From positions 118,157,431 through 118,221,430 of the forward strand of contig OU015491.1 in assembly GCA_907164885.2 (NCBI GenBank): a stretch of DNA of 64,000 nt, given 5' to 3'. The DNA comes from Dolomedes plantarius. Its lineage: Eukaryota; Arthropoda; Arachnida; Araneae; Dolomedidae. Both the position numbers and the translations under genes were made by a program. Shown piece after piece: positions 7,195-64,000 of the stretch. The first letter of the stretch is position 1, and every line of letters begins with the position of its first letter. The notes below the pieces were generated by a model. It was not told the DNA's origin and searched no databases. It saw nothing but the letters and a program-made list of their open reading frames with translations.

Positions 7195-7197
7195 ACG

Positions 7198-8544: not shown

Positions 8545-8674
8545 ACACCAATACCACTGTGTTGAACACTGCTTGATTTTTTGAAATATTTTTCCTTTTT
8601 CTGCTCTTTTTTTTATCTTTTCAGAATTATTGTTTACAACCCAGCCGCGGACGTCTGGAAAGTCAGAACGGCCG
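8545..8674 (+). other. region between integrase and 3' LTR
   Basis: Contains a pyrimidine-rich stretch (about 8590-8625) rather than the usual purine-rich tract. The 20 bases before the LTR are mixed (GGAAAGTCAGAACGGCCG), so the plus-strand primer site is unclear. Confidence 0.5.
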
Positions 8675-8967
8675 TGTGAGAATGAGTTTGGCAACACAAC
8701 TGAACTATTTCTACAACTTCCACTCCTACTACTTCGGCGCGAAGGACTTGGCGCGCAAACACAGTGATGGACTAGTGACATTACGAAGCGGATGTGTCGC
8801 TCCGCAGGCTTGCCGTTTTGAGTCAAATAGCTGTGTTGATGCTTTGTTTTTTTTAATTTCATACTAAGTGTTAGTCCTGTCTTGTAAACATCGTCTAGTT
8901 TAATTAAATGTTCAAAATAATTAAGTCTAATGATTCACTTCTAAAGGAAGGAGTACTAACTCCTTCC

Positions 8968-8971
<4 letters not shown>
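8675..8971 (+). repeat. 3' LTR
   Basis: 297 bp, TG to CA, one difference from the 5' LTR. The same 10-bp U5 hairpin is at 8945-8968. Confidence 0.95.

Positions 8972-9026
<55 letters not shown>
8972..9026. repeat. (TA)n microsatellite between LTR element and foldback MITE
   Basis: An almost pure TA run with a single AA interruption, lying between the 3' LTR and the MITE's left end. Confidence 0.95.
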
Positions 9027-22351: not shown

Positions 22352-23370
22352 TTAATATTTAGTATGATATCCTTTAGCATCCACAACAGCTTTTAAACGT
22401 CTGGGAATAGATTACTTTAGTTCTTTTGTAATTTTTGCATCAATGTTCATCCATTATTCTATCATAATTGTTTTTAGTTCGCTTTTCGTGTGAATGTCAT
22501 GTTTTAGCACTCGAACCTCCAGTTCTCTCCAAATATGTTCTATTGGGTTTAAATCTGGCGATTGAGGTGGTGTTTTCAAAACTTGTGGACAATTATAGAG
22601 ACACCAGATGCGAACGTTGAGAGCCGTGTGCTTAGGATCGTTATCTTGATAAAAAACAAAGTTGTTTCTAATACCCAAATTTTGAGCTGATAATTTTAAA
22701 TTGTCTCTTAAAATATTTATAAAAACAGCATGATTCATTATGCCATCGATAAATACCAAATTTCCTAGTCCTGATGCTGACATGCACCCCCACACAAGGA
22801 TACCTCCACCGGCATGCTAAACTGTTCCTACTAAGTTCTTGGGATTAAGTTCCTCATTTTTTTCTTCTCCATACAATTATACGCCCATGAGCACCAAAAA
22901 TGTTCATCAGCAAATAAAACATTATTCCACTAGGTTTGGGGCTTATTTATCATTGATAGTGCGAAGGGAAGCCTAAACTTTCTGTATTTCTCACTCACAA
23001 AAAATTTTCTATGGGCAGAACGCCCATGTAATCCAGCTGTTCTGAGAACTCGTCAAAAAATTTCAGGTGAAACTGAAGTAGAAAATGTTTCATTGAATTC
23101 TGCAGAAACTTTTACAGCACTCAAATGGGAAGTTTTCACAAATTTTCTAATTATAAATCTCTGATCACGTTTTGTTAACTTTGCCGGACGGCCTTTTCTT
23201 ACCTCGTTTTCGATCCAATTTTCTTCTTTAAAGCGTTTTTTCACATACTGCACAGTAGAATGGGATAAATTAAGTAATTTAGCAATATTCCGAACTGATT
23301 TACAACTACTATGATGAAAAATAATCAATTTTCGAATGCTGTTTGTTGTTTCTTTACGACTACGAGCCAT
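22352..23370 (-). pseudogene. Tc1 transposase, frameshifted
   Basis: The relic starts at ATG 23370 (MARSRKETTNSIRKLIIFHH) and ends GYHTKY-stop at 22352, about 340 codons, the normal Tc1 length. The N-terminal paired-type helix-turn-helix ends in a GRPAKLT hinge like the family's GRP motif. Catalytic residues are visible as LFADEHFW (first D), YQDNDPKHT (second D) and SPDLNPIEHIW (E), the DD34E arrangement. Breaks include a stop after SPEIF (about 23053), a stop after NLVGTV (about 22817), a frame change between 23053 and 22795, and a stop after TIMIE (22454). It is non-functional. Confidence 0.88.
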
Positions 23371-24923
23371 TTTTAAATAATAAATTGAATATTACGGAGT
23401 AGGCAAGCTAAAATTAAAGCTAAACGATATTTTAAATGCCACCACAATTCAAAAATAAAAATAAAGCGCTAGACGATAATTTTAATTATGAATTTATCCG
23501 AAAATATTTCAGTGTACGATGACTTTTGTGAGATAATGTTTTTGTTACTTTTTGATTACTGGTTTCTTAAAAATAAAGTTTTACTATATTTTCAAAATAT
23601 TTCATGTAGTTTTGTTAAGAATCTAATATATAAAAATGAAAGTTTGTATCTCTGTAATTGTATAGAAATCCACAGTTTAGGAGCAATGATCGTGAAATTT
23701 TACATACAGGCGTCTTTAAAAACAGCCGAGGGTCTGAAGAACTTCAAAAATCGAAATTAATTACCGTTGATTTTTAATTAATAAAAAACCAACAATTTGT
23801 AAGCTGTTACACTTTGTGGAATCACTCCTCTGAATATGGCGTCCACGTTAGGGTTAGCTGACAAACAGCGAGCGAAATGATAAAAATAAATAAAATCAAA
23901 AAGTTTCAAGTTATATATTAAACCAGAATAATAAATGAAAATAATTATCTTTCAAGTCAGATTTTATACTCTAAAATAAATCGGATCCAACGGCATATTG
24001 ACACTCTCACACGCGATGGAAAATTCGAATCAACCACGCTAAGTGTCACGATCTTTTTTAATCGCTACTGCAATCCCCCTAGCTAATGTCTTTGTGTCTA
24101 TTGAAGAGTTAAAGACTAAGCTTCTATCCTGCTAACTTATTTCTCACTTAAAACTCCTCTTACTCCATAAATGTATGTACATTCACCAACCCATAGCAAC
24201 TTTCCAAAAAACTGATTGCGTATATTTTATACTTTACTCAACAATGTTGTGTATAATCGTGGCGTATTCGTTAAAATGGTTCGTTTGGTACCCCGTAATA
24301 CTCGGGCTCGAGTCGGGATCGCGCAAATTTTGCTAAACCTGTATTTTCAGCTTTTTTATGAAGGCTTTTTTATTTCAGCTTTTATTTTATTATTTTTTTA
24401 ATTATTATCTTTATTTTTTAAATTATTATTATTATTTTATTTTATTATTTTTTAAAATTATTTTTATTTTATTATTTTTTTTCAGCTTTTTTATGATGAA
24501 AGACCGAATATAGCTGAAATCTGAGGAGTTTATTATACATTTATATATTTTTAATTGGTTTTCATATTATTAATGTGTATAACATTTCGTATGCTTTTTT
24601 TTCTATGTTATTTATACTGTGTTTAGTTTTTTAATGGATTTTGGTAGGTTTATTATAAATTTATATATTTTATGTTTTACTTTCCAGAATTTTTTGCTCC
24701 AATGATAAAGGCTAAATCTTTTCTATGTTATTTATACTGTGTTTAGTTTTAAAATTGATTTTGGGTAACAAACATTCATCAATAATTTATTTCTGGGCAT
24801 TGTATTGCTAACAATTAGGATAACCAAGAATTTTTGAAGGATGCGATTCTCGATTCACAAATGAGCAATAGATGGCGCCACTATTTTAAACTTTTAGTAT
24901 TCCATAAACCAACGCCTTCTAAA

Positions 24924-27867: not shown

Positions 27868-29368
27868 CCTGCTGGCCATTAAAATTGTAACACTATGAAG
27901 GAGGGAGGATACAGAATGAAAGGAAGAAGATGCTGGGATATGCAAATGATTAGCATTTTAGCGCAATCGAACAACATAGGAGGGAGAAATGGCATCTCAA
28001 ACTCTGTATAAAAGGAAAGTTACGCAGCGGGTTTCTCATTCGGAAATCGCATTTGAATGTTGTTTGTTTGTGAAAAGATCGTGTTATGGCTCTATAAGAA
28101 GGAGAAACGGCTACCAGCACGTGTCGGATTTCGATAGCGGCAGAATCGTGGCATATCGAGAGTGCGGTTTATCGTTCCGTGATATTGCTAATCGCATTGG
28201 TCGTAATCCAACGACTGTCATGCGAATATGGAATAGATGGGTTCAGGAGGCATTGAACACCATGCAAGATCTCAACGACTTCCCGCCTGTAACGCCCGAG
28301 CGGACAGACATGTTGTCAGGTCGGCTTTGCTGGATCGTACTGCCACATCACGGACCTTGAGTCAGGAAATGGGTCTGTTTGCAGCACAAGTATCCGCACG
28401 GACAGTGCGACGACGTCTGGAGCAGCACGGACTGTCTGCACGGCGACCATTATTGCGGCTTCCCTGACACTGCAGCATAGAGACGCGCGGCGACAGTAGT
28501 GCACCCAACGGCAAAACTTGAGAGAGGAGTGGCACCACGTTGTCTTTTCAGACGAGTCCCGGTTTTGCTTGCAGCATATCCGTCTGGAGGCACCGAGGAA
28601 AACGCACTGGACCTGCTTGCAATCGATATCATCATACTGCACCTGGTGTGATGGTATGGGCAGCCATTGGGTATACGACACGAAGAACTCTTGGTCGCTT
28701 CGTCGATCATCATGATGACCATGTCCTTGTCTGGAGGCACCGAGGAGAACGCACGTGTACTGCTTGCATTCGATATCATCACACGGCCACTGCACCTGGT
28801 GTGACGGTATGGGCAGCGATTGGGTATGCTGAACACTTCTTCTTCACGTCGTCGATAATCTGAACAGCCGGCGTTACATTTCTCAGGTCTTAAAGCCGGT
28901 GGCTGTGCCCTATCTTCGAGGCCTCGGAGACGTCATATTTCAATAAGATAACGCACGACCGCCTGTTGTCCGTCGTATCCTGACCTACCTCGATACAGAG
29001 GGTGGTCGATTGTTGCCATGGCCAGCACGTTCTCCATATATCTGACCCACTGAAAACATCTGTTCATGGCTTTCTGAGAGACTCTCTCCAGCCACTACGA
29101 TTGATGAAGTGTGGCACAGAATTGAAGCAGCATGGAATGTCTTGCCCGTATCTGTCATCCAAGCTCAGTTCGACTCGATGCCTAACCAGGTTAGAGTCGT
29201 TTAAGCTGCCTGAGGCGGCAGCCGTGTGCACTAATATTGGACTCTGTATACCCTCAGATTGCCTACATCATGTAATTATATTGTAATCATGTTTTCTTCC
29301 TACTATGCTGTATACGTACAATTATTTGCTCTCCTTCCTGGGGGTTACAATTTTAATGGTCATTAGTG
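27868..29368 (+). mobile_element. second Tc1-type transposon (1.5 kb)
   Basis: Flanked by TA (27866-27867 and 29369-29370). The ends are inverted copies sharing CCATTAAAATTGTAAC about 11 bp in from each side. The transposase relic is on the plus strand and is clearly more GC-rich than the surroundings. Confidence 0.85.
28085..29204 (+). pseudogene. Tc1-type transposase with internal duplication and frameshifts
   Basis: The N-terminal helix-turn-helix reads VSDFDSGRIVAYRECGLSFR then DIANRIGRNPTTVMRIWNRW. After a shift near 28310 the frame continues RTATSRTLSQEMGLFAAQVS and RTVRRRLEQHGLSARRPL. EEWHHVVFSDESRF supplies the first catalytic D. About 100 bp of the DDE domain (WRHRGKRT through TPGVMVWAAIGY) is present twice, at about 28579-28676 and 28727-28828. 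Downstream pieces include YLRGLGDVIFQ-stop-DNARP (second D), RLLPWPARSP and IQAQFDSMPNQVRVV-stop at 29204. The catalytic E region (usually SPDL-PIE) is mutated to SPYI-stop. It is dead several times over. Confidence 0.85.
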
Positions 29369-29489: not shown

Positions 29490-31230
29490 AAATTTTTATC
29501 TTTCGTATCAATAGAATCATCACGATACAAACCATTAGAGATTAGAAATTTTGCATTTAATCACGGTATATCAAATTATATATCTTTAATTTAAGACCAT
29601 TTACCATTTATAGGTAAACAATGGATGGCTTGGTCAGAGTTTTCTAATAAGATTTTTAGAATTACGATTATTTCAATGTCAATCTGTAAAGAATAGAAAT
29701 GATTTCTTATTTGAGGGATAGTAAATTAAAAAGAAATTAACTGGATAAAAATTACAGAAATAAATTTTTGACATAATGAATAGTTGTTTAATCTATGCTC
29801 GTATTATGGAAATAACCATTATTTCATCTTTCGTAGTAATAGAATAATCGCAATAAATCCATTGGAAATTAGAAATTTTCCATGGAATCACGATATATAA
29901 AATTAAAGATTTTTTAATTTAAGGCTTTTTATAATTTGTATGTAAATTGTTGTCGGCCAGGTCAGACTTTTCCAATTCGATTTCTATCATTGCAATTATT
30001 TCAATATCCATCTGCAAAAAAATTGACCTGATTTCTTATTTGAGGGATAGTAACATAAAAAAGAAATTAACTGGATAAAAATCACTGAAATAAAATCTTT
30101 ACATAATGAATAATTGTCTAAACTATACTCTTGTTATGAAAAGAACCATTAAATTTATCTTTACTTTCCCTACCTTAAAATACTCTGAACAAAGCCTCGC
30201 AATGCTTTCAGCAGTTTTGTAAGTGTCACGTTTAAAGAGCTGTCATGTTATAACTGCAGTGAAGAAAAAGCTTTAAAAATGTAAATGGCTCGTAAAATAG
30301 CTGTCACCTAATATGACAGTTTTTAGGAAAAGTCTTTTTTTAAGAAATATATAGCTGAGGGAAAAATGCTAACGGGAATCAGACTACATGAGTCTGAATT
30401 TTTTACTATCCGGCTTTTAGTATAATGGAACACATATGAGAAAAGAATGTAGAAGAAATAGCTAGTCAATTTCTTATTTGCTTATGAGCAAGTCAGATTT
30501 CTTATTAAAGGGATAGTAGATTTTAAAAAAATATTAACTGGATAAAATTCACTGAAACAAATTCTTGACATAATGAATAGTTGTTTAATCAATACGAATA
30601 GTTGTTTAATCTTATAGTTGTTTAATATGACATAATGAATAGTTGAAAAAATCCTAACAGAAATCAGATTAAACGAGTCTTTGAATTTTTTTATCCGGTT
30701 TTAGTATAATATAACACATATGAGAAAAGAATGTAGAAGAAAGAGCAAATCAATTTCTTATTTGCTTATGAGCAATTCATATTTCTTATTTGAGGGATTG
30801 TAAATTAAAAAAAGATATTAACTTGATAAAATTTGATAAAATAAATTCTTGACATAATGAATAGTTGTTTAAACGATGCTCTTGTTATGAAAAGAACCAT
30901 TAAATTTACTTACTTTCCCTACCTTAAAAAACGTTGAAAAAGCTCCGCAATGTTTTTAACAGTTCTCTAAGTGTCACGTTTAAGGAGCTGTCATGTTATA
31001 ACTGTAGTGCGAGGAAAAAGCTTTAAAAATGCAAATGGCTCGTAAAACAACTGTCACCTAATATGGCAGTTTTTCGGAAAAGTCTTTTTTTAAGAAATAT
31101 ATAGCTGAGGGAAAATGCTAACAGAAATCAGATCACATGAGTCTTTAATTTTTTTTACTATCCGGCTTTTAGTATAATGTAACATATATGAGAAAAGAAT
31201 GTACACAAAAGAGCAAGTCAATATTTATAA
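29490..31230. repeat. diverged complex tandem duplications
   Basis: 29490-29822 and 29825-30155 are two copies of a unit of about 332 bp (shared landmarks TATTTGAGGGATAGTA, TTAACTGGATAAAA, CATAATGAATA). 30161-30490 is repeated at 30910-31225, spacing about 749 bp (landmarks TACTTTCCCTACCTTAAAA, AAGAAATATATAGCTGAGGG). Further partial copies of the first unit start near 30503 and 30787. No coding sequence. The copies are well diverged, so the duplication is old. Confidence 0.8.
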
Positions 31231-44699: not shown

Positions 44700-44877
44700 C
44701 TAGCGGCCCGTCCCGACTTTGTCCGGGTTGAACAAAATATTATACCAATAAATTTCCAGTTGATAGCCAATAAATTGTAAATCTTTTTTTACCTTAATAA
44801 TAACCTAAATAATACCTTAAATTAATTTTATGTTAATTAATAATTAAAATAAATTTTTTTAAAGAAAAAGGCGTTCC

Positions 44878-44957
44878 GGAGAACGGCTAGGTTCGAACCG
44901 CTAGCTTCAGAACAGAAGCCCACCGCGATAGCACTACGATAAGGATCGTTGAAGACT
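44878..44957 (-). other. tRNA-like module inside Helitron D
   Basis: The minus strand carries an A-box-like TTATCGTAGTGCTATCGCGG and a perfect B box GCGGTTCGAACCT. In the satellite only the A-box half (GCACCACGCTAAGG on the plus strand) is kept at each monomer start; the B box is gone. Confidence 0.6.
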
Positions 44958-45035
44958 TCGGCACAAAAAGCGGTAGAGGACAATAGCGGTAACAATGGAG
45001 ATTGTTAGGATTAAGCCCCTAACTTTATTTCTACT

Positions 45036-45473
45036 GATTAGATATACATAATTTATAGCCTATGTCCATCTGGAATACTGTACCTTTCAAACAGTGAACG
45101 AATTTTTCAAATAGGTACAGTGGTTCTGAAGATTACCCTCCACGTACAAAATCGCTCTCTCTTTATATATAAGTATATAGATGATCAGATATACATAATA
45201 TATAGCCTATGTCCATCTGGAATAATGTACCTTTCAAACAATGAAAGAATTTTTCAAATAGGTGCAGTGGTTCTGGAGATTACCCTCCATGTACAAAATC
45301 GCTCTCTCTTTATATATAAGTATAGATGATCAGATATACATAATATATAGCCTATGTCCATCTGGAATAATGTACCTTTCAAACAGTGAAAGAATTTTTC
45401 AAATAGGTGCAGTGGTTCCGGAGATTACCCTCCACGTACAAAATCGCTCTCTCTCTTTATATCTAAGTATAGA
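45036..45473 (-). repeat. three 145-147-bp tandem units of the Helitron 5' end
   Basis: Units begin at 45036, 45183 and 45328 (GATTAGATATAC or GATCAGATATAC), each ending in the Helitron TC terminus (plus strand ...AAGTATAGAT). They are more diverged from each other than the long-monomer satellite and lack the first 105 bp of the later monomer. Confidence 0.9.
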
Positions 45474-45628
45474 TTATAGAAGTATAGATACACATTGGTA
45501 TCTCAAAATTGGAGTAAGAGATGAAATAAAAATACAAAAATAAAAAAAGGATTTTAAGTAAAGAATGTTCTTTTAATTATTTTAAGCACCTAAAATAATA
45601 TTCAAATTAATATTACGTTACTTAATAA

Positions 45629-47020
45629 TTGTTTGCACGGCCGCCATCTTGGATTTTTTTGCGCCAACTTGGCGATTTTACCGTGTTTTGAGGAGTGGAA
45701 AATTTCTCGCCAATGTGTTTTAAGCGGTGTTTTCAAAACGCTGGACTTTGAATTTTTTTAGCTTTTTTAATAAAAACCACCTGTTTAAATTATGAAACTT
45801 AGAAAAATTTTTGAAAAATCATTTAAACTTTGGACTTAGATTTATTTTTGGGTTTTTGAGAAAAACCACTTTTTTGAAAAAATCATTCTCAAATATTGGA
45901 AATTTTCGGTTTTTCTTTTAGCTTTTTTAATAAAAACGACCTTTTTAAATTGTGAAACTTAGAAATATTTTTGAAAAATCATTTAATCGTTGGACTGAGA
46001 TTTTTTTGTCATTTTTAATTAAAAACTACTTTTCAAATTATGATCCATATGAAAACTTGTTCAAATGAATTTTACTTACAGATAAAATTTCAATGCCATC
46101 TACTCAGTTTGCCCTAACTCTTTAACTAATAGCAATGAATCACCAAAATATTATGCCAATATATTGTTAATTAGAAAAAAATACAGCATTTTCGTACCAC
46201 CTAAATAACTTGCAATTTAAAAATTATCTAAAATTCAGCTTTGAAAAATGTAAAATAATTATGAACCCATAAATTTATGGTGAGTAACCAGATCCTCTTT
46301 TTTTTTTTTTTTTTTGGGTAGGGCATTGTGGTAATGAAATTTTACTTCAGATTTGACCTTAACCAAATATTTGGTGCATACAATAAAATCGGGACAAGGA
46401 TTATTTGACCATTTATCCTACTGTGTTGGAAATAAGAAAAAAAAAACCTTTTCCTAAACCAATAACTTAACCTTAACTAACTTTTTAACTTAGGTTCCTG
46501 GGGAGAGAGAAGTTGAACTTCACTTATTTAAATTTATTTGTAATCCACTACAACTTGGAATTATAAAATATATTAAAATATATTGTATTTAAAATGTATA
46601 CTGTATTTTACATTTTACGAAAAAAATGATGGTAGATAATTTTTACTTCAAATAAATGAAATGGTGTATCATTATAGTATACTAATTGACAATCGATAAA
46701 CAAAATTAAAAGCAACTTAAATTTAATAAGTTAACGAAAAACTGATAATGGATTCAAAAATTTTCAACAAAAAGACTCTTAGTTTTAAAAATAATTTACT
46801 CTTTTGAGTATAGTCAATTTGACTCAGATTTCCAGGTCAAGGCCAAGATCTGACCTAAAATTATTATACTGTAATTAAAAGATCACATCAGAAATAACTG
46901 TTTGATCTTAAAATTAGAGAATTTGACATTGGGTTATTTTTACCAGAACGCAATAATTATCGCCATGCAAAATGCGCCAAACCCTGGCGAAAAAATCCAA
47001 GATGGCGGCCGTGCACACAA
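45629..47020. mobile_element. 1.39-kb TIR element with a CAAGATGGCGGCC terminus
   Basis: The ends are inverted: GCACGGCCGCCATCTTGGAT from 45635, and the inverse ending at 47014-47016, about 30 bp with few mismatches. The interior is AT-rich and non-coding and contains a 160-bp-spaced direct repeat (AGCTTTTTTAATAAAAAC at 45760 and 45920) and a T run (46298-46315). No target duplication can be fixed. It separates the founder Helitron from the satellite proper. The terminal AAGATGGCGGC matches the known YY1 core binding sequence. Confidence 0.7.
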
Positions 47021-47208
47021 ATTTAGAGTATCCCCCCTAACTTTATTTCTACTGATCAGATATACATAATATATAGCCTATGTCCATCTGGAATAATGTA
47101 CCTTTCAAACAATGAAAGAATTTTTCAAATAGGTGCAGTGGTTCCGGAGATTACCCTCCACGTACAAAATCGCCCTCTCTCTTTATATATAAGTATAGAC
47201 TATAGATA
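47021..47208. repeat. partial, diverged first satellite monomer
   Basis: It starts inside a monomer (CCCCCTAACTTTATTTCTAC) and carries the founder-like variants GATCAG, AACAATGAAAG, GGTGCAG and GGTTCCGGAG that also occur in the short units at 45183-45473, then the 13-bp tail variant ATAGACTATAGATA. Confidence 0.9.
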
Positions 47209-48217
47209 GCACCACGCTAAGGATCGTTGAAGACTTCGCCACAAAAAGCGGTAGAGGACATTAGCGGTAACAATGGAAATTGTTGGGATGAAGCCCCTAA
47301 CTATATTTCTACTGATTACATATACATAATATATAGCCTATGTCCATCTGGAATAATGTACCTTTCAAACAGTGAAAGAATTTTTCAAATAGGTACAGTG
47401 GTTCTGAAGATTACCCTCCACGTACAAAATCCCCTCTCTCTTTATATATTAGTATAGATAGCACCACGCTAAGGATCGTTAAAGATACAAAAAGCGGTAG
47501 AGGACAGTAGCGGTAACAATGGAGATTGTTAGGATTAAGCCCATAACTTTATTTCTACTGATTAGATATACATAATATATAGCCTATGTCCATCTGGAAT
47601 AATGTACCTTTCAAACAGTGAAAGAATTTTTCAAATAGGTACAGTGGTTCTGAAGATTACCCTCCACGTACAAAATCCCCTCTCTCTTTATATATTACTA
47701 TAGATAGCACCACGCTAAGGATCGTTGAAGACTTCGCCACAAAAAGCGGTAGAGGACAGAAGCGGTAACAATGGAAATTGTTGGGATGAAGCCCCTAACT
47801 ATATTTCTACTGATTACATATACATAATATATAGCCTATGTCCATCTGGAATAATGTACCTTTCAAACAGTGAAAGAATTTTTCAAATAGGTACAGTGGT
47901 TCTGAAGATTACCCTCCACGTACAAAATCCCCTCTCTCTTTATATATTAGTATAGATAGCACCACGCTAAGGATCGTTAAAGATACAAAAAGCGGTAGAG
48001 GACAGTAGCGGTAACAATGGAGATTGTTAGGATTAAGCCCATAACTTTATTTCTACTGATTAGATATACATAATATATAGCCTATGTCCATCTGGAATAA
48101 TGTACCTTTCAAACAGTGAAAGAATTTTTCAAATAGGTACAGTGGTTCTGAAGATTACCCTCCACGTACAAAATCCCCTCTCTCTTTATATATTACTATA
48201 GATATAGACTATAGATA

Positions 48218-51200
48218 GCACCACGCTAAGGATCGTTGAAGACTTCGCCACAAAAAGCGGTAGAGGACAGTAGCGGTAACAATGGAAATTGTTGGGATGA
48301 AGCCCCTAACTATATTTCTACTGATTACATATACATAATATATAGCCTATGTCCATCTGGAATAATGTACCTTTCAAACAGTGAAAGAATTTTTCAAATA
48401 GGTACAGTGGTTCTGAAGATTACCCTCCACGTACAAAATCCCCTCTCTCTTTATATATTAGTATAGATAGCACCACGCTAAGGATCGTTAAAGATACAAA
48501 AAGCGGTAGAGGACAGTAGCGGTAACAATGGAGATTGTTAGGATTAAGCCCCTAACTTTATTTCTACTGATTAGATATACATAATATATAGCCTATGTCC
48601 ATCTGGAATAATGTACCTTTCAAACAGTGAAAGAATTTTTCAAATAGGTACAGTGGTTCTGAAGATTACCCTCCACGTACAAAATCCCCTCTCTCTTTAT
48701 ATATTAGTATAGATAGCACCACGCTAAGGATCGTTAAAGATACAAAAAGCGGTAGAGGACAGTAGCGGTAACAATGGAGATTGTTAGGATTAAGCCCCTA
48801 ACTTTATTTCTACTGATTAGATATACATAATATATAGCCTATGTCCATCTGGAATAATGTACCTTTCAAACAGTGAAAGAATTTTTCAAATAGGTACAGT
48901 GGTTCTGAAGATTACCCTCCACGTACAAAATCCCCTCTCTCTTTATATATTAGTATAGATAGCACCACGCTAAGGATCGTTAAAGATACAAAAAGCGGTA
49001 GAGGACAGTAGCGGTAACAATGGAGATTGTTAGGATTAAGCCCCTAACTTTATTTCTACTGATTAGATATACATAATATATAGCCTATGTCCATCTGGAA
49101 TAATGTACCTTTCAAACAGTGAAAGAATTTTTCAAATAGGTACAGTGGTTCTGAAGATTACCCTCCACGTACAAAATCCCCTCTCTCTTTATATATTAGT
49201 ATAGATAGCACCACGCTAAGGATCGTTAAAGATACAAAAAGCGGTAGAGGACAGTAGCGGTAACAATGGAGATTGTTAGGATTAAGCCCCTAACTTTATT
49301 TCTACTGATTAGATATACATAATATATAGCCTATGTCCATCTGGAATAATGTACCTTTCAAACAGTGAAAGAATTTTTCAAATAGGTACAGTGGTTCTGA
49401 AGATTACCCTCCACGTACAAAATCCCCTCTCTCTTTATATATTAGTATAGATAGCACCACGCTAAGGATCGTTGAAGACTTCGCCACAAAAAGCGGTAGA
49501 GGACAGTAGCGGTAACAATGGAAATTGTTAGGATGAAGCCCCTAACTTTATTTCTACTGATTAGATATACATAATATATAGCCTATGTCCATCTGGAATA
49601 ATGTACCTTTCAAACAGTGAAAGAATTTTTCAAATAGGTACAGTGGTTCTGAAGATTACCCTCCACGTAGAAAATCCCCTCTCTCTTTATATATTAGTAT
49701 AGATAGCACCACGCTAAGAATCGTTGAAGACTTCGCCACAAAAAGCGGTAGAGGACAGTAGCGGTAACAATGGAGATTGTTAGGATGAAGCCCCTAACTT
49801 TATTTCTACTGATTAGATATACATAATATATAGCCTATGTCCATCTGGAATAATGTACCTTTCAAACAGTGAAAGAATTTTTCAAATAGGTACAGTGGTT
49901 CTGAAGATTACCCTCCACGTACAAAATCCCCTCTCTCTTTATATATTAGTATAGATAGCACCACGCTAAGAATCGTTGAAGACTTCGCCACAAAAAGCGG
50001 TAGAGGACAGTAGCGGTAACAATGGAGATTGTTAGGATTAAGCCCCTAACTTTATTTCTACTGATTAGATAGATATACATAATATATAGCCTATGTCCAT
50101 CTGGAATAATGTACCTTTCAAGAGTGAAAAAATTCACAGTGAAAGAATTTTTCAAATAGGTACAGTGGTTCTGAAGATTACCCTCCACGTACAAAATCCC
50201 CTCTCTCTTTATATATTAGTATAGATAGCACCACGCTAAGGATCGTTAAAGATACAAAAAGCGGTAGAGGACAGTAGCGGTAACAATGGAGATTGTTAGG
50301 ATTAATCCCCTAACTTTATTTCTACTGATTAGATATACATAATATATAGCCTATGTCTATCTGGAATAATGTACCTTTCAAACAGTGAAAGAATTTTTCA
50401 AATAGGTACAGTGGTTCTGAAGATTACCCTCCACGTACAAAATCCCCTCTCTCTTTATATATTAGTATAGATAGCACCACGCTAAGTATCGTTAAAGATA
50501 CAAAAAGCGGTAGAGGACAGTAGCGGTAACAATGGAGATTGTTAGGATTAAGCCCCTAACTTTATTTCTACTGATTAGATATACATAATATATAGCCTAT
50601 GTCCATCTGGAATAATGTACCTTTCAAACAGTGAAAGAATTTTTCAAATAGGTACAGTGGTTCTGAAGATTACCCTCCACGTACAAAATCCCCTCTCTCT
50701 TTATATATTAGTATAGATAGCACCACGCTAAGGATCGTTAAAGATACAAAAAGCGGTAGAGGACAGTAGCGGTAACAATGGAGATTGTTAGGATGAAGCC
50801 CCTAACTTTATTTCTACTGATTAGATATACATAATATGTAGCCTATGTCCATCTGGAATAATGTACTTTCAAACAGAGACAGAATTTTTCAAATAGGTAC
50901 AGTGGTTCTGAAGATTAACCTCCACGTACAAAATCCCCTCTCTCATTATATATTAGTATAGATAGCACCACGCTAAGGATCGTTGAAGACTTCGCCACAA
51001 AAAGCGGTAGAGGACAGTAGCGGTAACAATGGAAATTGTTAGGATGAAGCCCCTAACTTTATTTCTACTGATTAGATATACATAATATATAGCCTATGTC
51101 CATCTGGAATAATGTACCTTTCAAACAGTGAAAGAATTTTTCAAATAGGTACAGTGGTTCTGAAGATTACCCTCCACGTACAAAATCCCCTCTCTCTTTA

Positions 51201-54200
51201 TATATTAGTATAGATAGCACCACGCTAAGGATCGTTAAAGATACAAAAAGCGGTAGAGGACAGTAGCGGTAACAATGGAGATTGTTAGGATTAAGCCCAT
51301 AACTTTATTTCTACTGATTAGATATACATAATATATAGCCTATGTCCATCTGGAATAATGTACCTTTCAAACAGTGATAGAATTTTTCAAATAGGTACAG
51401 TGGTTCTGAAGATTACCCTCCACGTACAAAATCCCCTCTCTCTTTATATATTACTATAGATATAGACTATAGATAGCACCACGCTAAGGATCGTTGAAGA
51501 CTTCGCCACAAAAAGCGGTAGAGGACAGTAGCGGTAACAATGGAAATTGTTGGGATGAAGCCCCTAACTATATTTCTACTGATTACATATACATAATATA
51601 TAGCCTATGTCCATCTGGAATAATGTACCTTTCAAACAGTGAAAGAATTTTTCAAATAGGTACAGTGGTTCTGAAGATTACCCTCCACGTACAAAATCCC
51701 CTCTCTCTTTATATATTAGTATAGATAGCACCACGCTAAGGATCGTTAAAGATACAAAAAGCGGTAGAGGACAGTAGCGGTAACAATGGAGATTGTTAGG
51801 ATTAAGCCCCTAACTTTATTTCTACTGATTAGATATACATAATATATAGCCTATGTCCATCTGGAATAATGTACCTTTCAAACAGTGAAAGAATTTTTCA
51901 AATAGGTACAGTGGTTCTGAAGATTACCCTCCACGTACAAAATCCCCTCTCTCTTTATATATTAGTATAGATAGCACCACGCTAAGGATCGTTAAAGATA
52001 CAAAAAGCGGTAGAGGACAGTAGCGGTAACAATGGAGATTGTTAGGATTAAGCCCCTAACTTTATTTCTACTGATTAGATATACATAATATATAGCCTAT
52101 GTCCATCTGGAATAATGTACCTTTCAAACAGTGAAAGAATTTTTCAAATAGGTACAGTGGTTCTGAAGATTACCCTCCACGTACAAAATCCCCTCTCTCT
52201 TTATATATTAGTATAGATAGCACCACGCTAAGGATCGTTGAAGACTTCGCCACAAAAAGCGGTAGAGGACAGTAGCGGTAACAATGGAAATTGTTAGGAT
52301 GAAGCCCCTAACTTTATTTCTACTGATTAGATATACATAATATATAGCCTATGTCCATCTGGAATAATGTACCTTTCAAACAGTGAAAGAATTTTTCAAA
52401 TAGGTACAGTGGTTCTGAAGATTACCCTCCACGTAGAAAATCCCCTCTCTCTTTATATATTAGTATAGATAGCACCACGCTAAGGATCGTTGAAGACTTC
52501 GCCACAAAAAGCTGTAGAGGACAGTAGCGGTAACAATGGAAATTGTTAGGATGAAGCCCCTAACTTTATTTCTACTGATTAGATATACATAATATATAGG
52601 CTATGTCCATCTGGAATAATGTACCTTTCAAACAGTGAAAGAATTTTTCAAATAGGTACAGTGGTTCTGAAGATTACCCTCCACGTACAAAATCCCCTCT
52701 CTCTTTATATATTAGTATAGATAGCACCACGCTAAGAATCGTTGAAGACTTCGCCACAAAAAGCGGTAGAGGACAGTAGCGGTAACAATGGAGATTGTTA
52801 GGATTAAGCCCCTAACTTTATTTCTACTGATTAGATAGATATACATAATATATAGCCTATGTCCATCTGGAATAATGTACCTTTCAAACAGTGAAAGAAT
52901 TTTTCAAATAGGTACAGTGGTTCTGAAGATTACCCTCCACGTACAAAATCCCCTCTCTCTTTATATATTAGTATAGATAGCACCACGCTAAGGATCGTTA
53001 AAGATACAAAAAGCGGTAGAGGACAGTAGCGGTAACAATGGAGATTGTTAGGATTAAGCCCCTAACTTTATTTCTACTGATTAGATATACATAATATATA
53101 GCCTATGTCCATCTGGAATAATGTACCTTTCAAACAGTGAAAGAATTTTTCAAATAGGTACAGTGGTTCTGAAGATTACCCTCCACGTAGAAAATCCCCT
53201 CTCTCTTTATATATTAGTATAGATAGCACCACGCTAAGGATCGTTGAAGACTTCGCTACAAAAAGCGGTAGAGGACAGTAGCGGTAACAATGGAGATTGT
53301 TAGGATGAAGCCCCTAACTTTATTTCTACTGATTAGATATACATAATATATAGCCTATGTCCATCTGGAATAATGTACCTTTCAAACAGTGAAAGAATTT
53401 TTCAAATAGGTACAGTGGTTCTGAAGATTACCCTCCACGTAGAAAATCCCCTCTCTCTTTATATATTAGTATAGATAGCACCACGCTAAGGATCGTTGAA
53501 GACTTCGCCACAAAAAGCGGTAGAGGACAGTAGCGGTAACAATGGAAATTGTTAGGATGAAGCCCCTAACTTTATTTCTACTGATTAGATATACATAATA
53601 TATAGCCTATGTCTATCTGGAATAATGTACCTTTCAAACAGTGAAAGAATTTTTCAAATAGGTACAGTGGTTCTGAAGATTACCCTCCACGTACAAAATC
53701 CCCTCTCTCTTTATATATTAGTATAGATAGCACCACGCTAAGTATCGTTAAAGATACAAAAAGCGGTAGAGGACAGTAGCGGTAACAATGGAGATTGTTA
53801 GGATTAAGCCCCTATCTTTATTTCTACTGATTAGATATACATAATATATAGCCTATGTACATCTGGAATAATGTACCTTTCAAACAGTGAAAGAATTTTT
53901 CAAATAGGTACAGTGGTTCTGAAGATTACCCTCCACGTACAAAATCCCCTCTCTCTTTATATATTAGTATAGATAGCACCACGCTAAGGATCGTTAAAGA
54001 TACAAAAAGCGGTAGAGGACAGTAGCGGTAACAATGGAGATTGTTAGGATTAATCCCCTAACTTTATTTCTACTGATTAGATATACATAATATATAGCCT
54101 ATGTCTATCTGGAATAATGTACCTTTCAAACAGTGAAAGAATTTTTCAAATAGGTACAGTGGTTCTGAAGATTACCCTCCACGTACAAAATCCCCTCTCT

Positions 54201-54480
54201 CTTTATATATTAGTATAGATAGCACCACGCTAAGGATCGTTAAAGATACAAAAAGCGGTAGAGGACAGTAGCGGTAACAATGGAGATTGTTAGGATTAAG
54301 CCCATAACTTTATTTCTACTGATTAGATATACATAATATATAGCCTATGTCCATCTGGAATAATGTACCTTTCAAACAGTGAAAGAATTTTTCAAATAGG
54401 TACAGTGGTTCTGAAGATTACCCTCCACGTACAAAATCCCCTGTCTCTTTATATATTACTATAGATATAGACTATAGATA
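48218..54480. repeat. higher-order repeat copy 1 (25 monomers, 6263 bp)
   Basis: Monomer starts: 48218, 48470, 48716, 48962, 49208, 49454, 49706, 49958, 50228, 50474, 50720, 50965, 51217, 51476, 51728, 51974, 52220, 52472, 52724, 52980, 53226, 53478, 53730, 53976, 54222. Marker variants: ACTATATTTC with GATTACAT (monomers 1 and 14), the rearranged AGAGTGAAAAAATTCACAG (monomer 8), GTACTTTCAAACAGAGACAG (monomer 11), 13-bp tails (monomers 13 and 25). Confidence 0.95.
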
Positions 54481-57400
54481 GCACCACGCTAAGGATCGTT
54501 GAAGACTTCGCCACAAAAAGCGGTAGAGGACAGTAGCGGTAACAATGGAAATTGTTGGGATGAAGCCCCTAACTATATTTCTACTGATTACATATACATA
54601 ATATATAGCCTATGTCCATCTGGAATAATGTACCTTTCAAACAGTGAAAGAATTTTTCAAATAGGTACAGTGGTTCTGAAGATTACCCTCCACGTACAAA
54701 ATCCCCTCTCTCTTTATATATTAGTATAGATAGCACCACGCTAAGGATCGTTAAAGATACAAAAAGCGGTAGAGGACAGTAGCGGTAACAATGGAGATTG
54801 TTAGGATTAAGCCCCTAACTTTATTTCTACTGATTAGATATACATAATATATAGCCTATGTCCATCTGGAATAATGTACCTTTCAAACAGTGAAAGAATT
54901 TTTCAAATAGGTACAGTGGTTCTGAAGATTACCCTCCACGTACAAAATCCCCTCTCTCTTTATATATTAGTATAGATAGCACCACGCTAAGGATCGTTAA
55001 AGATACAAAAAGCGGTAGAGGACAGTAGCGGTAACAATGGAGATTGTTAGGATTAAGCCCCTAACTTTATTTCTACTGATTAGATATACATAATATATAG
55101 CCTATGTCCATCTGGAATAATGTACCTTTCAAACAGTGAAAGAATTTTTCAAATAGGTACAGTGGTTCTGAAGATTACCCTCCACGTACAAAATCCCCTC
55201 TCTCTTTATATATTAGTATAGATAGCACCACGCTAAGGATCGTTAAAGATACAAACAGCGGTAGAGGACAGTAGCGGTAACAATGGAGATTGTTAGGATT
55301 AAGCCCCTAACTTTATTTCTACTGATTAGATATACATAATATATAGCCTATGTCCATCTGGAATAATGTACCTTTCAAACAGTGAAAGAAATTTTCAAAT
55401 AGGTACAGTGGTTCTGAAGATTACCCTCCACGTACAAAATCCCCTCTCTCTTTATATATTAGTATAGATAGCACCACGCTAAGGATCGTTAAAGATACAA
55501 AAAGCGGTAGAGGACAGTAGCGGTAACAATGAAGATTGTTAGGATTAAGCCCCTAACTTTATTTCTACTGATTAGATATACATAATATATAGCCTATGTC
55601 CATCTGGAATAATGTACCTTTCAAACAGTGAAAGAATTTTTCAAATAGGTACAGTGGTTCTGAAGATTACCCTCCACGTACAAAATCGCCTCTCTCTTTA
55701 TATATTAGTATAGATAGCACCACGCTAAGGATCGTTGAAGACTTCGCCACAAAAAGCGGTAGAGGACAGTAGCGGTAACAATGGAAATTGTTAGGATGAA
55801 GCCCCTAACTTTATTTCTACTGATTAGATATACATAATATATAGCCTATGTCCATCTGGAATAATGTACCTTTCAAACAGTGAAAGAATTTTTCAAATAG
55901 GTACAGTGGTTCTGAAGATTACCCTCCACGTAGAAAATCCCCTCTCTCTTTATATATTAGTATAGATAGCACCACGCTAAGGATCGTTGAAGACTTCGCC
56001 ACAAAAAGCGGTAGAGGACAGTAGCGGTAACAATGGAAATTGTTAGGATGAAGCCCCTAACTTTATTTCTACTGATTAGATATACATAATATATAGGCTA
56101 TGTCCATCTGGAATAATGTACCTTTCAAACAGTGAAAGAATTTTTCAAATAGGTACAGTGGTTCTGAAGATTACCCTCCACGTACAAAATCCCCTCTCTC
56201 TTTATATATTAGTATAGATAGCACCACGCTAAGAATCGTTGAAGACTTCGCCACAAAAAGCGGTAGAGGACAGTAGCGGTAACAATGGAGATTGTTAGGA
56301 TTAAGCCCCTAACTTTATTTCTACTGATTAGATAGATATACATAATATATAGCCTATGTCCATCTGGAATAATGTACCTTTCAAGAGTGAAAAAATTCAC
56401 AGTGAAAGAATTTTTCAAATAGGTACAGTGGTTCTGAAGATTACCCTCCACGTACAAAATCCCCTCTCTCTTTATATATTAGTATAGATAGCACCACGCT
56501 AAGGATCGTTAAAGATACAAAAAGCGGTAGAGGACAGTAGCGGTAACAATGGAGATTGTTAGGATTAATCCCCTAACTTTATTTCTACTGATTAGATATA
56601 CATAATATATAGCCTATGTCTATCTGGAATAATGTACCTTTCAAACAGTGAAAGAATTTTTCAAATAGGTACAGTGGTTCTGAAGATTACCCTCCACGTA
56701 CAAAATCCCCTCTCTCTTTATATATTAGTATAGATAGCACCACGCTAAGTATCGTTAAAGATACAAAAAGCGGTAGAGGACAGTAGCGGTAACAATGGAG
56801 ATTGTTAGGATTAAGCCCCTAACTTTATTTCTACTGATTAGATATACATAATATATAGCCTATGTCCATCTGGAATAATGTACCTTTCAAACAGTGAAAG
56901 AATTTTTCAAATAGGTACAGTGGTTCTGAAGATTACCCTCCACGTACAAAATCCCCTCTCTCTTTATATATTAGTATAGATAGCACCACGCTAAGGATCG
57001 TTAAAGATACAAAAAGCGGTAGAGGACAGTAGCGGTAACAATGGAGATTGTTAGGATGAAGCCCCTAACTTTATTTCTACTGATTAGATATACATAATAT
57101 GTAGCCTATGTCCATCTGGAATAATGTACTTTCAAACAGAGACAGAATTTTTCAAATAGGTACAGTGGTTCTGAAGATTAACCTCCACGTACAAAATCCC
57201 CTCTCTCATTATATATTAGTATAGATAGCACCACGCTAAGGATCGTTGAAGACTTCGCCACAAAAAGCGGTAGAGGACAGTAGCGGTAACAATGGAAATT
57301 GTTAGGATGAAGCCCCTAACTTTATTTCTACTGATTAGATATACATAATATATAGCCTATGTCCATCTGGAATAATGTACCTTTCAAACAGTGAAAGAAT

Positions 57401-60400
57401 TTTTCAAATAGGTACAGTGGTTCTGAAGATTACCCTCCACGTACAAAATCCCCTCTCTCTTTATATATTAGTATAGATAGCACCACGCTAAGGATCGTTA
57501 AAGATACAAAAAGCGGTAGAGGACAGTAGCGGTAACAATGGAGATTGTTAGGATTAAGCCCATAACTTTATTTCTACTGATTAGATATACATAATATATA
57601 GCCTATGTCCATCTGGAATAATGTACCTTTCAAACAGTGATAGAATTTTTCAAATAGGTACAGTGGTTCTGAAGATTACCCTCCACGTACAAAATCCCCT
57701 CTCTCTTTATATATTACTATAGATATAGACTATAGATAGCACCACGCTAAGGATCGTTGAAGACTTCGCCACAAAAAGCGGTAGAGGACAGTAGCGGTAA
57801 CAATGGAAATTGTTGGGATGAAGCCCCTAACTATATTTCTACTGATTACATATACATAATATATAGCCTATGTCCATCTGGAATAATGTACCTTTCAAAC
57901 AGTGAAAGAATTTTTCAAATAGGTACAGTGGTTCTGAAGATTACCCTCCACGTACAAAATCCCCTCTCTCTTTATATATTAGTATAGATAGCACCACGCT
58001 AAGGATCGTTAAAGATACAAAAAGCGGTAGAGGACAGTAGCGGTAACAATGGAGATTGTTAGGATTAAGCCCCTAACTTTATTTCTACTGATTAGATATA
58101 CATAATATATAGCCTATGTCCATCTGGAATAATGTACCTTTCAAACAGTGAAAGAATTTTTCAAATAGGTACAGTGGTTCTGAAGATTACCCTCCACGTA
58201 CAAAATCCCCTCTCTCTTTATATATTAGTATAGATAGCACCACGCTAAGGATCGTTAAAGATACAAAAAGCGGTAGAGGACAGTAGCGGTAACAATGGAG
58301 ATTGTTAGGATTAAGCCCCTAACTTTATTTCTACTGATTAGATATACATAATATATAGCCTATGTCCATCTGGAATAATGTACCTTTCAAACAGTGAAAG
58401 AATTTTTCAAATAGGTACAGTGGTTCTGAAGATTACCCTCCACGTACAAAATCCCCTCTCTCTTTATATATTAGTATAGATAGCACCACGCTAAGGATCG
58501 TTGAAGACTTCGCCACAAAAAGCGGTAGAGGACAGTAGCGGTAACAATGGAAATTGTTAGGATGAAGCCCCTAACTTTATTTCTACTGATTAGATATACA
58601 TAATATATAGCCTATGTCCATCTGGAATAATGTACCTTTCAAACAGTGAAAGAATTTTTCAAATAGGTACAGTGGTTCTGAAGATTACCCTCCACGTAGA
58701 AAATCCCCTCTCTCTTTATATATTAGTATAGATAGCACCACGCTAAGGATCGTTGAAGACTTCGCCACAAAAAGCTGTAGAGGACAGTAGCGGTAACAAT
58801 GGAAATTGTTAGGATGAAGCCCCTAACTTTATTTCTACTGATTAGATATACATAATATATAGGCTATGTCCATCTGGAATAATGTACCTTTCAAACAGTG
58901 AAAGAATTTTTCAAATAGGTACAGTGGTTCTGAAGATTACCCTCCACGTACAAAATCCCCTCTCTCTTTATATATTAGTATAGATAGCACCACGCTAAGG
59001 ATCGTTGAAGACTTCGCCACAAAAAGCGGTAGAGGACAGTAGCGGTAACAATGGAGATTGTTAGGATTAAGCCCCTAACTTTATTTCTACTGATTAGATA
59101 GATATACATAATATATAGCCTATGTCCATCTGGAATAATGTACCTTTCAAACAGTGAAAGAATTTTTCAAATAGGTACAGTGGTTCTGAAGATTACCCTC
59201 CACGTACAAAATCCCCTCTCTCTTTATATATTAGTATAGATAGCACCACGCTAAGGATCGTTAAAGATACAAAAAGCGGTAGAGGACAGTAGCGGTAACA
59301 ATGGAGATTGTTAGGATGAAGCCCCTAACTTTATTTCTACTGATTAGATATACATAATATATAGCCTATGTCCATCTGGAATAATGTACCTTTCAAACAG
59401 TGAAAGAATTTTTCAAATAGGTACAGTGGTTCTGAAGATTACCCTCCACGTAGAAAATCCCCTCTCTCTTTATATATTAGTATAGATAGCACCACGCTAA
59501 GGATCGTTGAAGACTTCGCTACAAAAAGCGGTAGAGGACAGTAGCGGTAACAATGGAGATTGTTAGGATGAAGCCCCTAACTTTATTTCTACTGATTAGA
59601 TATACATAATATATAGCCTATGTCCATCTGGAATAATGTACCTTTCAAACAGTGAAAGAATTTTTCAAATAGGTACAGTGGTTCTGAAGATTACCCTCCA
59701 CGTAGAAAATCCCCTCTCTCTTTATATATTAGTATAGATAGCACCACGCTAAGGATCGTTGAAGACTTCGCCACAAAAAGCGGTAGAGGACAGTAGCGGT
59801 AACAATGGAAATTGTTAGGATGAAGCCCCTAACTTTATTTCTACTGATTAGATATACATAATATATAGCCTATGTCTATCTGGAATAATGTACCTTTCAA
59901 ACAGTGAAAGAATTTTTCAAATAGGTACAGTGGTTCTGAAGATTACCCTCCACGTACAAAATCCCCTCTCTCTTTATATATTAGTATAGATAGCACCACG
60001 CTAAGTATCGTTAAAGATACAAAAAGCGGTAGAGGACAGTAGCGGTAACAATGGAGATTGTTAGGATTAAGCCCCTATCTTTATTTCTACTGATTAGATA
60101 TACATAATATATAGCCTATGTACATCTGGAATAATGTACCTTTCAAACAGTGAAAGAATTTTTCAAATAGGTACAGTGGTTCTGAAGATTACCCTCCACG
60201 TACAAAATCCCCTCTCTCTTTATATATTAGTATAGATAGCACCACGCTAAGGATCGTTAAAGATACAAAAAGCGGTAGAGGACAGTAGCGGTAACAATGG
60301 AGATTGTTAGGATTAATCCCCTAACTTTATTTCTACTGATTAGATATACATAATATATAGCCTATGTCTATCTGGAATAATGTACCTTTCAAACAGTGAA

Positions 60401-60743
60401 AGAATTTTTCAAATAGGTACAGTGGTTCTGAAGATTACCCTCCACGTACAAAATCCCCTCTCTCTTTATATATTAGTATAGATAGCACCACGCTAAGGAT
60501 CGTTAAAGATACAAAAAGCGGTAGAGGACAGTAGCGGTAACAATGGAGATTGTTAGGATTAAGCCCATAACTTTATTTCTACTGATTAGATATACATAAT
60601 ATATAGCCTATGTCCATCTGGAATAATGTACCTTTCAAACAGTGAAAGAATTTTTCAAATAGGTACAGTGGTTCTGAAGATTACCCTCCACGTACAAAAT
60701 CCCCTCTCTCTTTATATATTACTATAGATATAGACTATAGATA
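54481..60743. repeat. higher-order repeat copy 2 (6263 bp)
   Basis: Every marker of copy 1 recurs exactly 6263 bp further on, including the rearranged monomer 8 (56221) and monomer 11 (56983). Differences are few, for example ACAAACAGCGG at 55252-55262, AATGAAGATTG near 55530, and a replaced monomer 7, which matches monomer 18 type (TATAGGCTATG) instead of copy 1's version. Confidence 0.95.
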
Positions 60744-63700
60744 GCACCACGCTAAGGATCGTTGAAGACTTCGCCACAAAAAGCGGTAGAGGACAGTAGC
60801 GGTAACAATGGAAATTGTTGGGATGAAGCCCCTAACTATATTTCTACTGATTACATATACATAATATATAGCCTATGTCCATCTGGAATAATGTACCTTT
60901 CAAACAGTGAAAGAATTTTTCAAATAGGTACAGTGGTTCTGAAGATTACCCTCCACGTACAAAATCCCCTCTCTCTTTATATATTAGTATAGATAGCACC
61001 ACGCTAAGGATCGTTAAAGATACAAAAAGCGGTAGAGGACAGTAGCGGTAACAATGGAGATTGTTAGGATTAAGCCCCTAACTTTATTTCTACTGATTAG
61101 ATATACATAATATATAGCCTATGTCCATCTGGAATAATGTACCTTTCAAACAGTGAAAGAATTTTTCAAATAGGTACAGTGGTTCTGAAGATTACCCTCC
61201 ACGTACAAAATCCCCTCTGTCTTTATATATTAGTATAGATAGCACCACGCTAAGGATCGTTAAAGATACAAAAAGCGGTAGAGGACAGTAGCGGTAACAA
61301 TGGAGATTGTTAGGATTAAGCCCCTAACTTTATTTCTACTGATTAGATATACATAATATATAGCCTATGTCCATCTGGAATAATGTACCTTTCAAACAGT
61401 GAAAGAATTTTTCAAATAGGTACAGTGGTTCTGAAGATTACCCTCCACGTACAAAATCCCCTCTCTCTTTATATATTAGTATAGATAGCACCACGCTAAG
61501 GATCGTTAAAGATACAAAAAGCGGTAGAGGACAGTAGCGGTAACAATGGAGATTGTTAGGATTAAGCCCCTAACTTTATTTCTACTGATTAGATATACAT
61601 AATATATAGCCTATGTCCATCTGGAATAATGTACCTTTCAAACAGTGAAAGAATTTTTCAAATAGGTACAGTGGTTCTGAAGATTACCCTCCACGTACAA
61701 AATCCCCTCTCTCTTTATATATTAGTATAGATAGCACCACGCTAAGGATCGTTAAAGATACAAAAAGCGGTAGAGGACAGTAGCGGTAACAATGGAGATT
61801 GTTAGGATTAAGCCCCTAACTTTATTTCTACTGATTAGATATACATAATATATAGCCTATGTCCATCTGGAATAATGTACCTTTCAAACAGTGAAAGAAT
61901 TTTTCAAATAGGTACAGTGGTTCTGAAGATTACCCTCCACGTACAAAATCCCCTCTCTCTTTATATATTAGTATAGATAGCACCACGCTAAGGATCGTTA
62001 AAGACTTCGCCACAAAAAGCGGTAGAGGACAGTAGCGGTAACAATGGAAATTGTTAGGATGAAGCCCCTAACTTTATTTCTACTGATTAGATATACATAA
62101 TATATAGCCTATGTCCATCTGGAATAATGTACCTTTCAAACAGTGAAAGAATTTTTCAAATAGGTACAGTGGTTCTGAAGATTACCCTCCACGTAGAAAA
62201 TCCCCTCTCTCTTTATATATTAGTATAGATAGCACCACGCTAAGGATCGTTGAAGACTTCGCCACAAAAAGCGGTAGAGGACAGTAGCGGTAACAATGGA
62301 AATTGTTAGGATGAAGCCCCTAACTTTATTTCTACTGATTAGATATACATAATATATAGGCTATGTCCATCTGGAATAATGTACCTTTCAAACAGTGAAA
62401 GAATTTTTCAAATAGGTACAGTGGTTCTGAAGATTACCCTCCACGTACAAAATCCCCTCTCTCTTTATATATTAGTATAGATAGCACCACGCTAAGAATC
62501 GTTGAAGACTTCGCCACAAAAAGCGGTAGAGGACAGTAGCGGTAACAATGGAGATTGTTAGGATTAAGCCCCTAACTTTATTTCTACTGATTAGATAGAT
62601 ATACATAATATATAGCCTATGTCCATCTGGAATAATGTACCTTTCAAACAGTGAAAGAATTTTTCAAATAGGTACAGTGGTTCTGAAGATTACCCTCCAC
62701 GTACAAAATCCCCTCTCTCTTTATATATTAGTATAGATAGCACCACGCTAAGGATCGTTAAAGATACAAAAAGCGGTAGAGGACAGTAGCGGTAACAATG
62801 GAGATTGTTAGGATGAAGCCCCTAACTTTATTTCTACTGATTAGATATACATAATATATAGCCTATGTCCATCTGGAATAATGTACCTTTCAAACAGTGA
62901 AAGAATTTTTCAAATAGGTACAGTGGTTCTGAAGATTACCCTCCACGTACAAAATCCCCTCTCTCATTATATATTAGTATAGATAGCACCACGCTAAGGA
63001 TCGTTGAAGACTTCGCCACAAAAAGCGGTAGAGGACAGTAGCGGTAACAATGGAAATTGTTAGGATGAAGCCCCTAACTTTATTTCTACTGATTAGATAT
63101 ACATAATATATAGCCTATGTCCATCTGGAATAATGTACCTTTCAAACAGTGAAAGAATTTTTCAAATAGGTACAGTGGTTCTGAAGATTACCCTCCACGT
63201 ACAAAATCCCCTCTCTCTTTATATATTAGTATAGATAGCACCACGCTAAGGATCGTTAAAGATACAAAAAGCGGTAGAGGACAGTAGCGGTAACAATGGA
63301 GATTGTTAGGATGAAGCCCCTAACTTTATTTCTACTGATTAGATATACATAATATATAGCCTATGTCCATCTGGAATAATGTACTTTCAAACAGAGACAG
63401 AATTTTTCAAATAGGTACAGTGGTTCTGAAGATTAACCTCCACGTACAAAATCCCCTCTCTCATTATATATTAGTATAGATAGCACCACGCTAAGGATCG
63501 TTGAAGACTTCGCCACAAAAAGCGGTAGAGGACAGTAGCGGTAACAATGGAAATTGTTAGGATGAAGCCCCTAACTTTATTTCTACTGATTAGATATACA
63601 TAATATATAGCCTATGTCCATCTGGAATAATGTACCTTTCAAACAGTGAAAGAATTTTTCAAATAGGTACAGTGGTTCTGAAGATTACCCTCCACGTACA

Positions 63701-64000
63701 AAATCCCCTCTCTCTTTATATATTAGTATAGATAGCACCACGCTAAGAATCGTTGAAGACTTCGCCACAAAAAGCGGTAGAGGACAGTAGCGGTAACAAT
63801 GGAAATTGTTAGGATGAAGCCCCTAACTTTATTTCTACTGATTAGATATACATAATATATAGCCTATGTCCATCTGGAATAATGTACCTTTCAAACAGTG
63901 AAAGAATTTTTCAAATAGGTACAGTGGTTCTGAAGATTACCCTCCACGTACAAAATCCCCTCTCTCTTTATATATTAGTATAGATAGCACCACGCTAAGG
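60744..64000. repeat. higher-order repeat copy 3, partial and reshuffled
   Basis: It starts like the other copies (ACTATATTTC monomer). Monomer 6 (61980) is an A/B hybrid (GTTAAAGACTTCGCC). Monomer 8 (62484) lacks the rearranged AGAGTGAAAAAATTCACAG. The GTACTTTCAAACAGAGACAG monomer falls at 63238 but is followed by a different monomer order. It stops at the window end. Confidence 0.9.

Follow-up and report, generated by a model that had tools for sequence, protein, structure and literature searches.

A satellite-like array in the genome of the spider Dolomedes plantarius is of a 5′-end type carried by dispersed Helitrons

The window, by which we mean the whole 64 000 nt stretch of DNA that was analysed, comes from the genome of the spider Dolomedes plantarius (2.78 Gb in 390 contigs). 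An LTR retrotransposon at 3211-8972 carries Ty3-like gag-pol frames (4219-8544) interrupted by a stop, and is probably a recent insertion, as its two 298-bp direct repeats are 99.7% identical. A Tigger/pogo-like transposase is encoded in two frames at 13543-15078 (DDE_1 and CENP-B_N); the nearest relatives of the protein, at 84%, are on unnamed contigs, and the best named one, at 38%, is from the spider Uloborus. Fragments of Tc1/mariner-like transposases, with matches to DDE_3 and to helix-turn-helix domains, lie at 22454-23391 and 27980-28360, and a 328-bp unit is repeated in tandem at 29494-30151 (TRF, 2.0 copies, 80% matches). The region of interest here is formed by a Helitron, termed D, and the tandem array that adjoins it (Table 1).

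Table 1. Parts of the Helitron D and of the adjoining array, in positions of the window.
Feature	Position	Strand	Remarks
D element (Helitron)	44700-47199	−	5′ TC end at 47199, 3′ CTAG end at 44700; boundaries common to full copies L082-L088
HEAD	44700-44925	−	3′ part of D with the CTAG end; weak hairpin only
EXT	44926-45034	−	together with U, the 246/252-bp monomer
U × 3, tandem 5′-end units	45035-45473	−	each closes ..GTATAGA, then T; basis TRF
M, filler in D	45474-47033	−	1.56 kb
Inverted repeat within M	45629-45662 / 46987-47020		
Terminal 5′ end of D	47034-47199	−	19 bp of EXT and one U; in six copies unique DNA comes next
Array of (EXT+U) monomers, 246/252 bp	47200-64000	−	no 3′ end of its own; extends 1,982 bp beyond the window

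An earlier reading of this DNA, made from the sequence alone, had placed D at 44700-45473, with a block of three tandem units of about 145 bp as its 5′ end. The CTAG end at 44700, immediately preceded by A, holds, as does the triple block, which consists of three units of approximately 145-147 bp (TRF, 147 bp × 3.0 at 45035-45474). The end at 45473 was dropped, because nearly all D copies seen continue beyond the U block with the same TTATAGAAGTATAGATACACATTGG and all seven fully read copies include the filler M; copies that were read further agree with the window up to 47199. In these seven copies, each read across approximately 5 kb, the parts run in the order HEAD, EXT, three to five U, M, 19 bp of EXT and a last U. 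M and the terminal unit are 98.5-99.9% identical among the seven full copies and the window. Beyond the 5′ end, the right flank of six full copies is unique DNA that begins with T, and the seventh, L088, lies inside an array. We also considered the inverted-repeat piece of M as a separate transposon located between D and the array and rejected this, as it lies inside D in every full copy; it may formerly have been one. At L086 (C2:7367250-7372250), the last 94 bp of M and the terminal unit are repeated on either side of a full M.

The TC at 47199 and the CTAG at 44700, read on the minus strand and common to the copies, are the canonical 5′ TC and 3′ CTRR ends of Helitrons. All 41 distinct 20-bp flanks before CTAG close with A. 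Beyond the 5′ end, 24 of 25 distinct sequences begin with T, four of these 25 being internal joins within the family; the sole exception, L020, reads GTATATAGA and then T, with one extra TA. The region is therefore Helitron sequence, and belongs to a large family that is inserted between A and T, with no duplication of the target. The predicted hairpin in HEAD has a stem of 4 bp at −3.4 kcal/mol and is not better than those of shuffled sequences (z 0.56). Rep-domain loci with long open frames number at least 150 (150 scored of 2,496 candidates), and none of these was linked to the ends of this family as an autonomous partner. On their left flanks, three D copies and one headless array (L005, L015, L034 and L090) lie beside a repeat end of one kind, CAGTTACG.AACTG and then TA-rich sequence, which is possibly another preferred target.

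The earlier estimate of about 67 monomers of 246/252 bp is borne out. TRF reports 246 bp × 67.7 from 47034, and there are 68 regular unit starts in the window, the first at 47207, and 75 overall across 18,783 bp from 47200. The TRF assignment of 47034-47199 to the array was rejected, since this piece groups in the tree with the terminal units of other D copies. The host DNA past the far end of the array begins with T. Each monomer had been described as a Helitron 5′ end extended inward, and it does match positions 44926-45181 of the Helitron at approximately 95% identity. As to the companion claim that every junction falls at the TC terminus, 271 of 320 unit-to-EXT junctions, from partly overlapping loci, read exactly A or T, then AGTATAGA, then TAGCACCACGCTAA, and the remainder are variants.

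Within the array a higher-order repeat of 25 monomers is apparent, with a mean identity of 0.9947 at a lag of 25 units and 0.9898 at a lag of 50, compared with approximately 0.978-0.984 at other lags. This favours unequal exchange or block duplication at least once. That the length of the array or its 25-unit blocks are artefacts of assembly is suggested by the 99.1% identity of the blocks and by another array that runs into N. The blocks differ, however, at about 0.5-1% of sites, and other contigs carry arrays of other lengths, and we regard an artefact as very unlikely. Nor is the window array a copy of another fetched array, the longest exact match being 659 bp, which is less than three monomers.

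Dispersed copies of both kinds were found. With the 774 bp first assigned to D as query, 32 rows span positions 1-774 on 10 contigs at 95-100% identity, among the best 40 of 1,571 candidates. Among 22 distinct copies carrying both HEAD and M (the D tree printed 23 rows, of which L048 and L018 are one locus), five have three units, 14 have four and three have five. The number of units does not track the D tree cleanly, and we rejected it as a marker of clades. At L033 and L023 (C5:165387221-165389742), two tandem Helitron units of 874 bp, equal in length and differing at 37 positions, are followed by a D copy.

One monomer of the window matches at least 14 places on nine contigs, the window included, among the matches listed. 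The 3′ side was seen for 11 of these 14 arrays; one of the remaining three breaks off in N. Eight of the 11 have an intact HEAD after A, with non-family DNA beyond it in seven cases; the eighth HEAD is nested within another copy's 5′ end. At C5:94.89 Mb a HEAD truncated at position 71 lies behind a further 5′ end, the array at C1:231.8 Mb has no HEAD at all, and the window array has D on that side. T follows all eight of the array 5′ ends seen, and most arrays are bounded by Helitron ends. Replacing an overlapping locus at C5:64.2 Mb in the comparison of monomer types across arrays gave the same picture. Many dispersed copies combine a single 3′ end with multiple 5′ ends, in units of 145 bp (the D type) or of 246/252 bp (eight of the 11 arrays), and the window array is of the type of 5′-end array carried by other Helitrons.

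The relationships among units were examined in a tree of 174 units, built on approximately 147 bp, from which three of every four array-internal units and repeated sequences had been left out. One group of 48 (support 0.87) takes in 44 of 46 D-internal units, another of 24 (support 0.93) takes in 22 of 24 D-last units, and a group of nine (support 0.74) holds eight of the 11 array-first units. D-first units are divided by a root split of low support, 23 of 28 lying in the half that holds array and single-unit elements and five in the other. An earlier tree (186/275 units), with its grouping of terminal units, had included 12 units from re-fetched copies of three loci. Units are related mostly by position and not by locus, which fits a composite that was built once and then transposed.

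The monomers themselves point in the same direction. Both length types are present in 12 of 12 arrays, and mean monomer identity is 0.978 within loci and 0.974 between them, an excess above that in all of 1000 permutations, in a sample picked by near-perfect match to one window monomer among the matches listed, which favours similarity between loci. The excess is small though significant, and the strong homogenization within loci that marks a classical satellite is not seen. Together with the short shared order of monomers, these values indicate that monomer diversity is largely older than dispersal; the slightly higher identity within loci indicates some local amplification afterwards.

These observations bear on the proposal of the sequence-only reading that the locus displays a satellite at birth, with D as founder, the triple block as intermediate and the array as mature product, slippage at the 5′ end of D having produced three short units and then the adjacent array. 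D and the array do adjoin, and the first units of D are related in sequence to array units. It is the terminal end at 47199 that adjoins the array, however, and not the triple block; D copies with three to five units are dispersed and positionally orthologous; and arrays on other contigs carry their own HEAD, eight of these HEADs forming a single group in a tree printed without support values. The search for Helitron copies elsewhere, which that reading had itself named as a test, therefore speaks against local birth, and we consider birth in place extremely improbable. Of the proposed slippage followed by unequal exchange, a part for exchange is plausible, and block duplication is seen in the array.

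Genome-wide, the pattern of the 3′ end has 6,689 matches and the monomer junction 4,646, each with one mismatch allowed and with no match to the reversed-pattern control. In the first 49.65 Mb of C1, the exact matches listed form 26 junction clusters, 22 of them with one or two junctions. An exact 3′ end on the same strand lies near 14 of the 26, at 465-475 bp (one unit) in 13 cases and at 724 bp (two units) in one; the 12 misses include any cluster with a mismatched 3′ end, as only exact matches were used. A 3′ end lodged in a second copy, exactly 4 bp in from the 5′ end of the latter (GTA^TAGA), was found 392 times (two mismatches allowed; control 0), equivalent to approximately 6% of the 6,689 3′ ends, although the two patterns are not strictly comparable and some of these cases may descend from a single event. 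In the unique sequence of the window A^T accounts for 0.107 of positions, and 5′ ends are estimated from the 3′-end and junction counts to be of the order of ten thousand, so that random insertion would yield about one nested case or fewer.

Given these data, we think it probable that this stretch was assembled from parts of Helitrons, with a ratchet adding 5′ ends, and is not a satellite at birth. Copies would land within other copies, favouring a hot spot 4 bp in from the 5′ end, and rolling-circle transposition would then start at the outer 5′ end and stop at the first 3′ end it reaches. By this route nesting and read-through would supply further 5′ ends, along with filler such as M, but never 3′ ends. 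Once tandem 5′ units were in place, the array could be lengthened by unequal exchange or by rolling-circle replication. Individual joins fit insertion of this kind: in L088, D is lodged in an array element at GTA^TAGATAGCACC, and the joins in L070 and L050 are consistent with insertion at A^T sites within HEAD.

Several observations count against the ratchet. A nested intermediate at the HEAD/EXT border, which would directly make the 246-bp junction, gave no match, and self-insertion exactly at that border was rejected for this reason. The base before the T of the 145-bp junction in intact copies is C, not A (TAC in 364 of 379), and the join in L086 comes after T. The array without any HEAD at C1:231.8 Mb, the loose relation of unit number to the D tree, the slight excess of identity within loci and the low root support of the unit trees weigh on the same side. 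Both the 246-bp junction that lacks an intermediate and the poor fit of the 145-bp junction to A^T insertion would be accommodated by the mechanism put forward for plant Helitrons, in which a circle without terminator, here without HEAD, is copied into an array of 5′ units and integrated; the headless arrays (the window and C1:231.8 Mb) and the combination of a single 3′ end with many 5′ ends also agree with it. A further step is needed, however, to explain why HEAD is kept in eight of 11 arrays, and the higher-order repeat of 25 units is more in keeping with exchange or block duplication. We consider such circles a tenable but less probable origin, and their amplification can act together with the ratchet.

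Under the ratchet, the arrangement in the window, where D adjoins the 3′ side of an array devoid of a 3′ end, calls for an account of its own. We lean slightly towards the view that D had landed in an array Helitron and that both were then delivered as a unit by transposition that began at the 5′ end of the array and ran to the 3′ end of D. A D copy nested in an array Helitron is present at C3:71.85 Mb, and M and the terminal unit of the window are nearest to those of L088 among the seven full copies (99.88%). The composite is flanked by A on the left and T on the right; a single insertion of D and array fits both flanks, and L088 provides a model precursor. The 5′ end of D adjoins CTATAGATAGCACC of the headless array where TAGA.. 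is expected, so that a loss of 4 bp at the junction must be assumed. No empty site for the composite was found in the genome, where both flanks are single copy. Among four other loci with a D end and array sequence, one has array units upstream and three have neither a D start nor an array in the stretch fetched. Alternatively, a headless array might have been there first, and D might have landed at its edge by chance. A headless array exists at C1:231.8 Mb and there is a hot spot at monomer junctions, but an A^C target would be needed here, and T is the base that almost always follows the 5′ ends. We judge chance insertion to be rather unlikely.

The repeats are thus real and largely explained, and the kind of element is already known from Helitrons with multiple 5′ ends in plants and Fusarium. 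Plant arrays, in the accounts available to us, likewise have many 5′ ends and one 3′ end, with several to several hundred repeats, and are attributed to rolling-circle copying of terminator-less circles (PMC12628747, PMC8268682, citing Xiong, Dooner and Du 2016); as described there they are centromeric, truncated and partly decayed, whereas those reported here are dispersed and near-identical, in an animal genome. Multiple 5′ termini of Helitrons are also mentioned in a passage of PMC6591975. In Fusarium, the FoHeli elements resemble D in having short 5′ segments repeated ahead of a single 3′ end, for which self-insertion has been proposed, with transposition that begins at the outer 5′ end and closes at the first 3′ end; the portion of that account drawn on here gives two or a few repeats of less than 200 bp and, unlike the present case, no arrays of tens of units (PMC5148889). 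The 154-bp repeats of Drosophila virilis Helitron-2 are in tandem in the 5′ region and dispersed with the element, as here, but in the description used they are internal (positions 237-1087, four in the consensus), whereas each unit of the spider element holds the terminal 5′ end (PMC3833285). The oyster Cg_HINE Helentrons likewise carry satellite-like arrays on rolling-circle elements; their repeats, in the part of the report used, are central and mostly number up to five units, the longest having 29.3, and their insertion sites are different (PMC7492417).

A satellite-looking array in an animal genome can therefore belong to a mobile Helitron as its 5′ region, transposed with its monomer diversity already present. 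A ‘founder’ recognized within such a sequence can be misread when the true end of the element sits past a filler segment. As one genome holds single, double, ladder and array forms together with nested pairs in their hundreds, the contributions of self-insertion with read-through, rolling-circle amplification and unequal exchange could be separated by use of long reads and relatives. The self-insertion hot spot is worth following. A bolder proposal, which we hold to be improbable at present, is that the family's own 5′ end is a preferred landing site, the ratchet driving itself and multiplying the replication-start ends of a single element, and the array being a selected trait and not a by-product. 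If this were true, elements with more replication-start ends may spread better.
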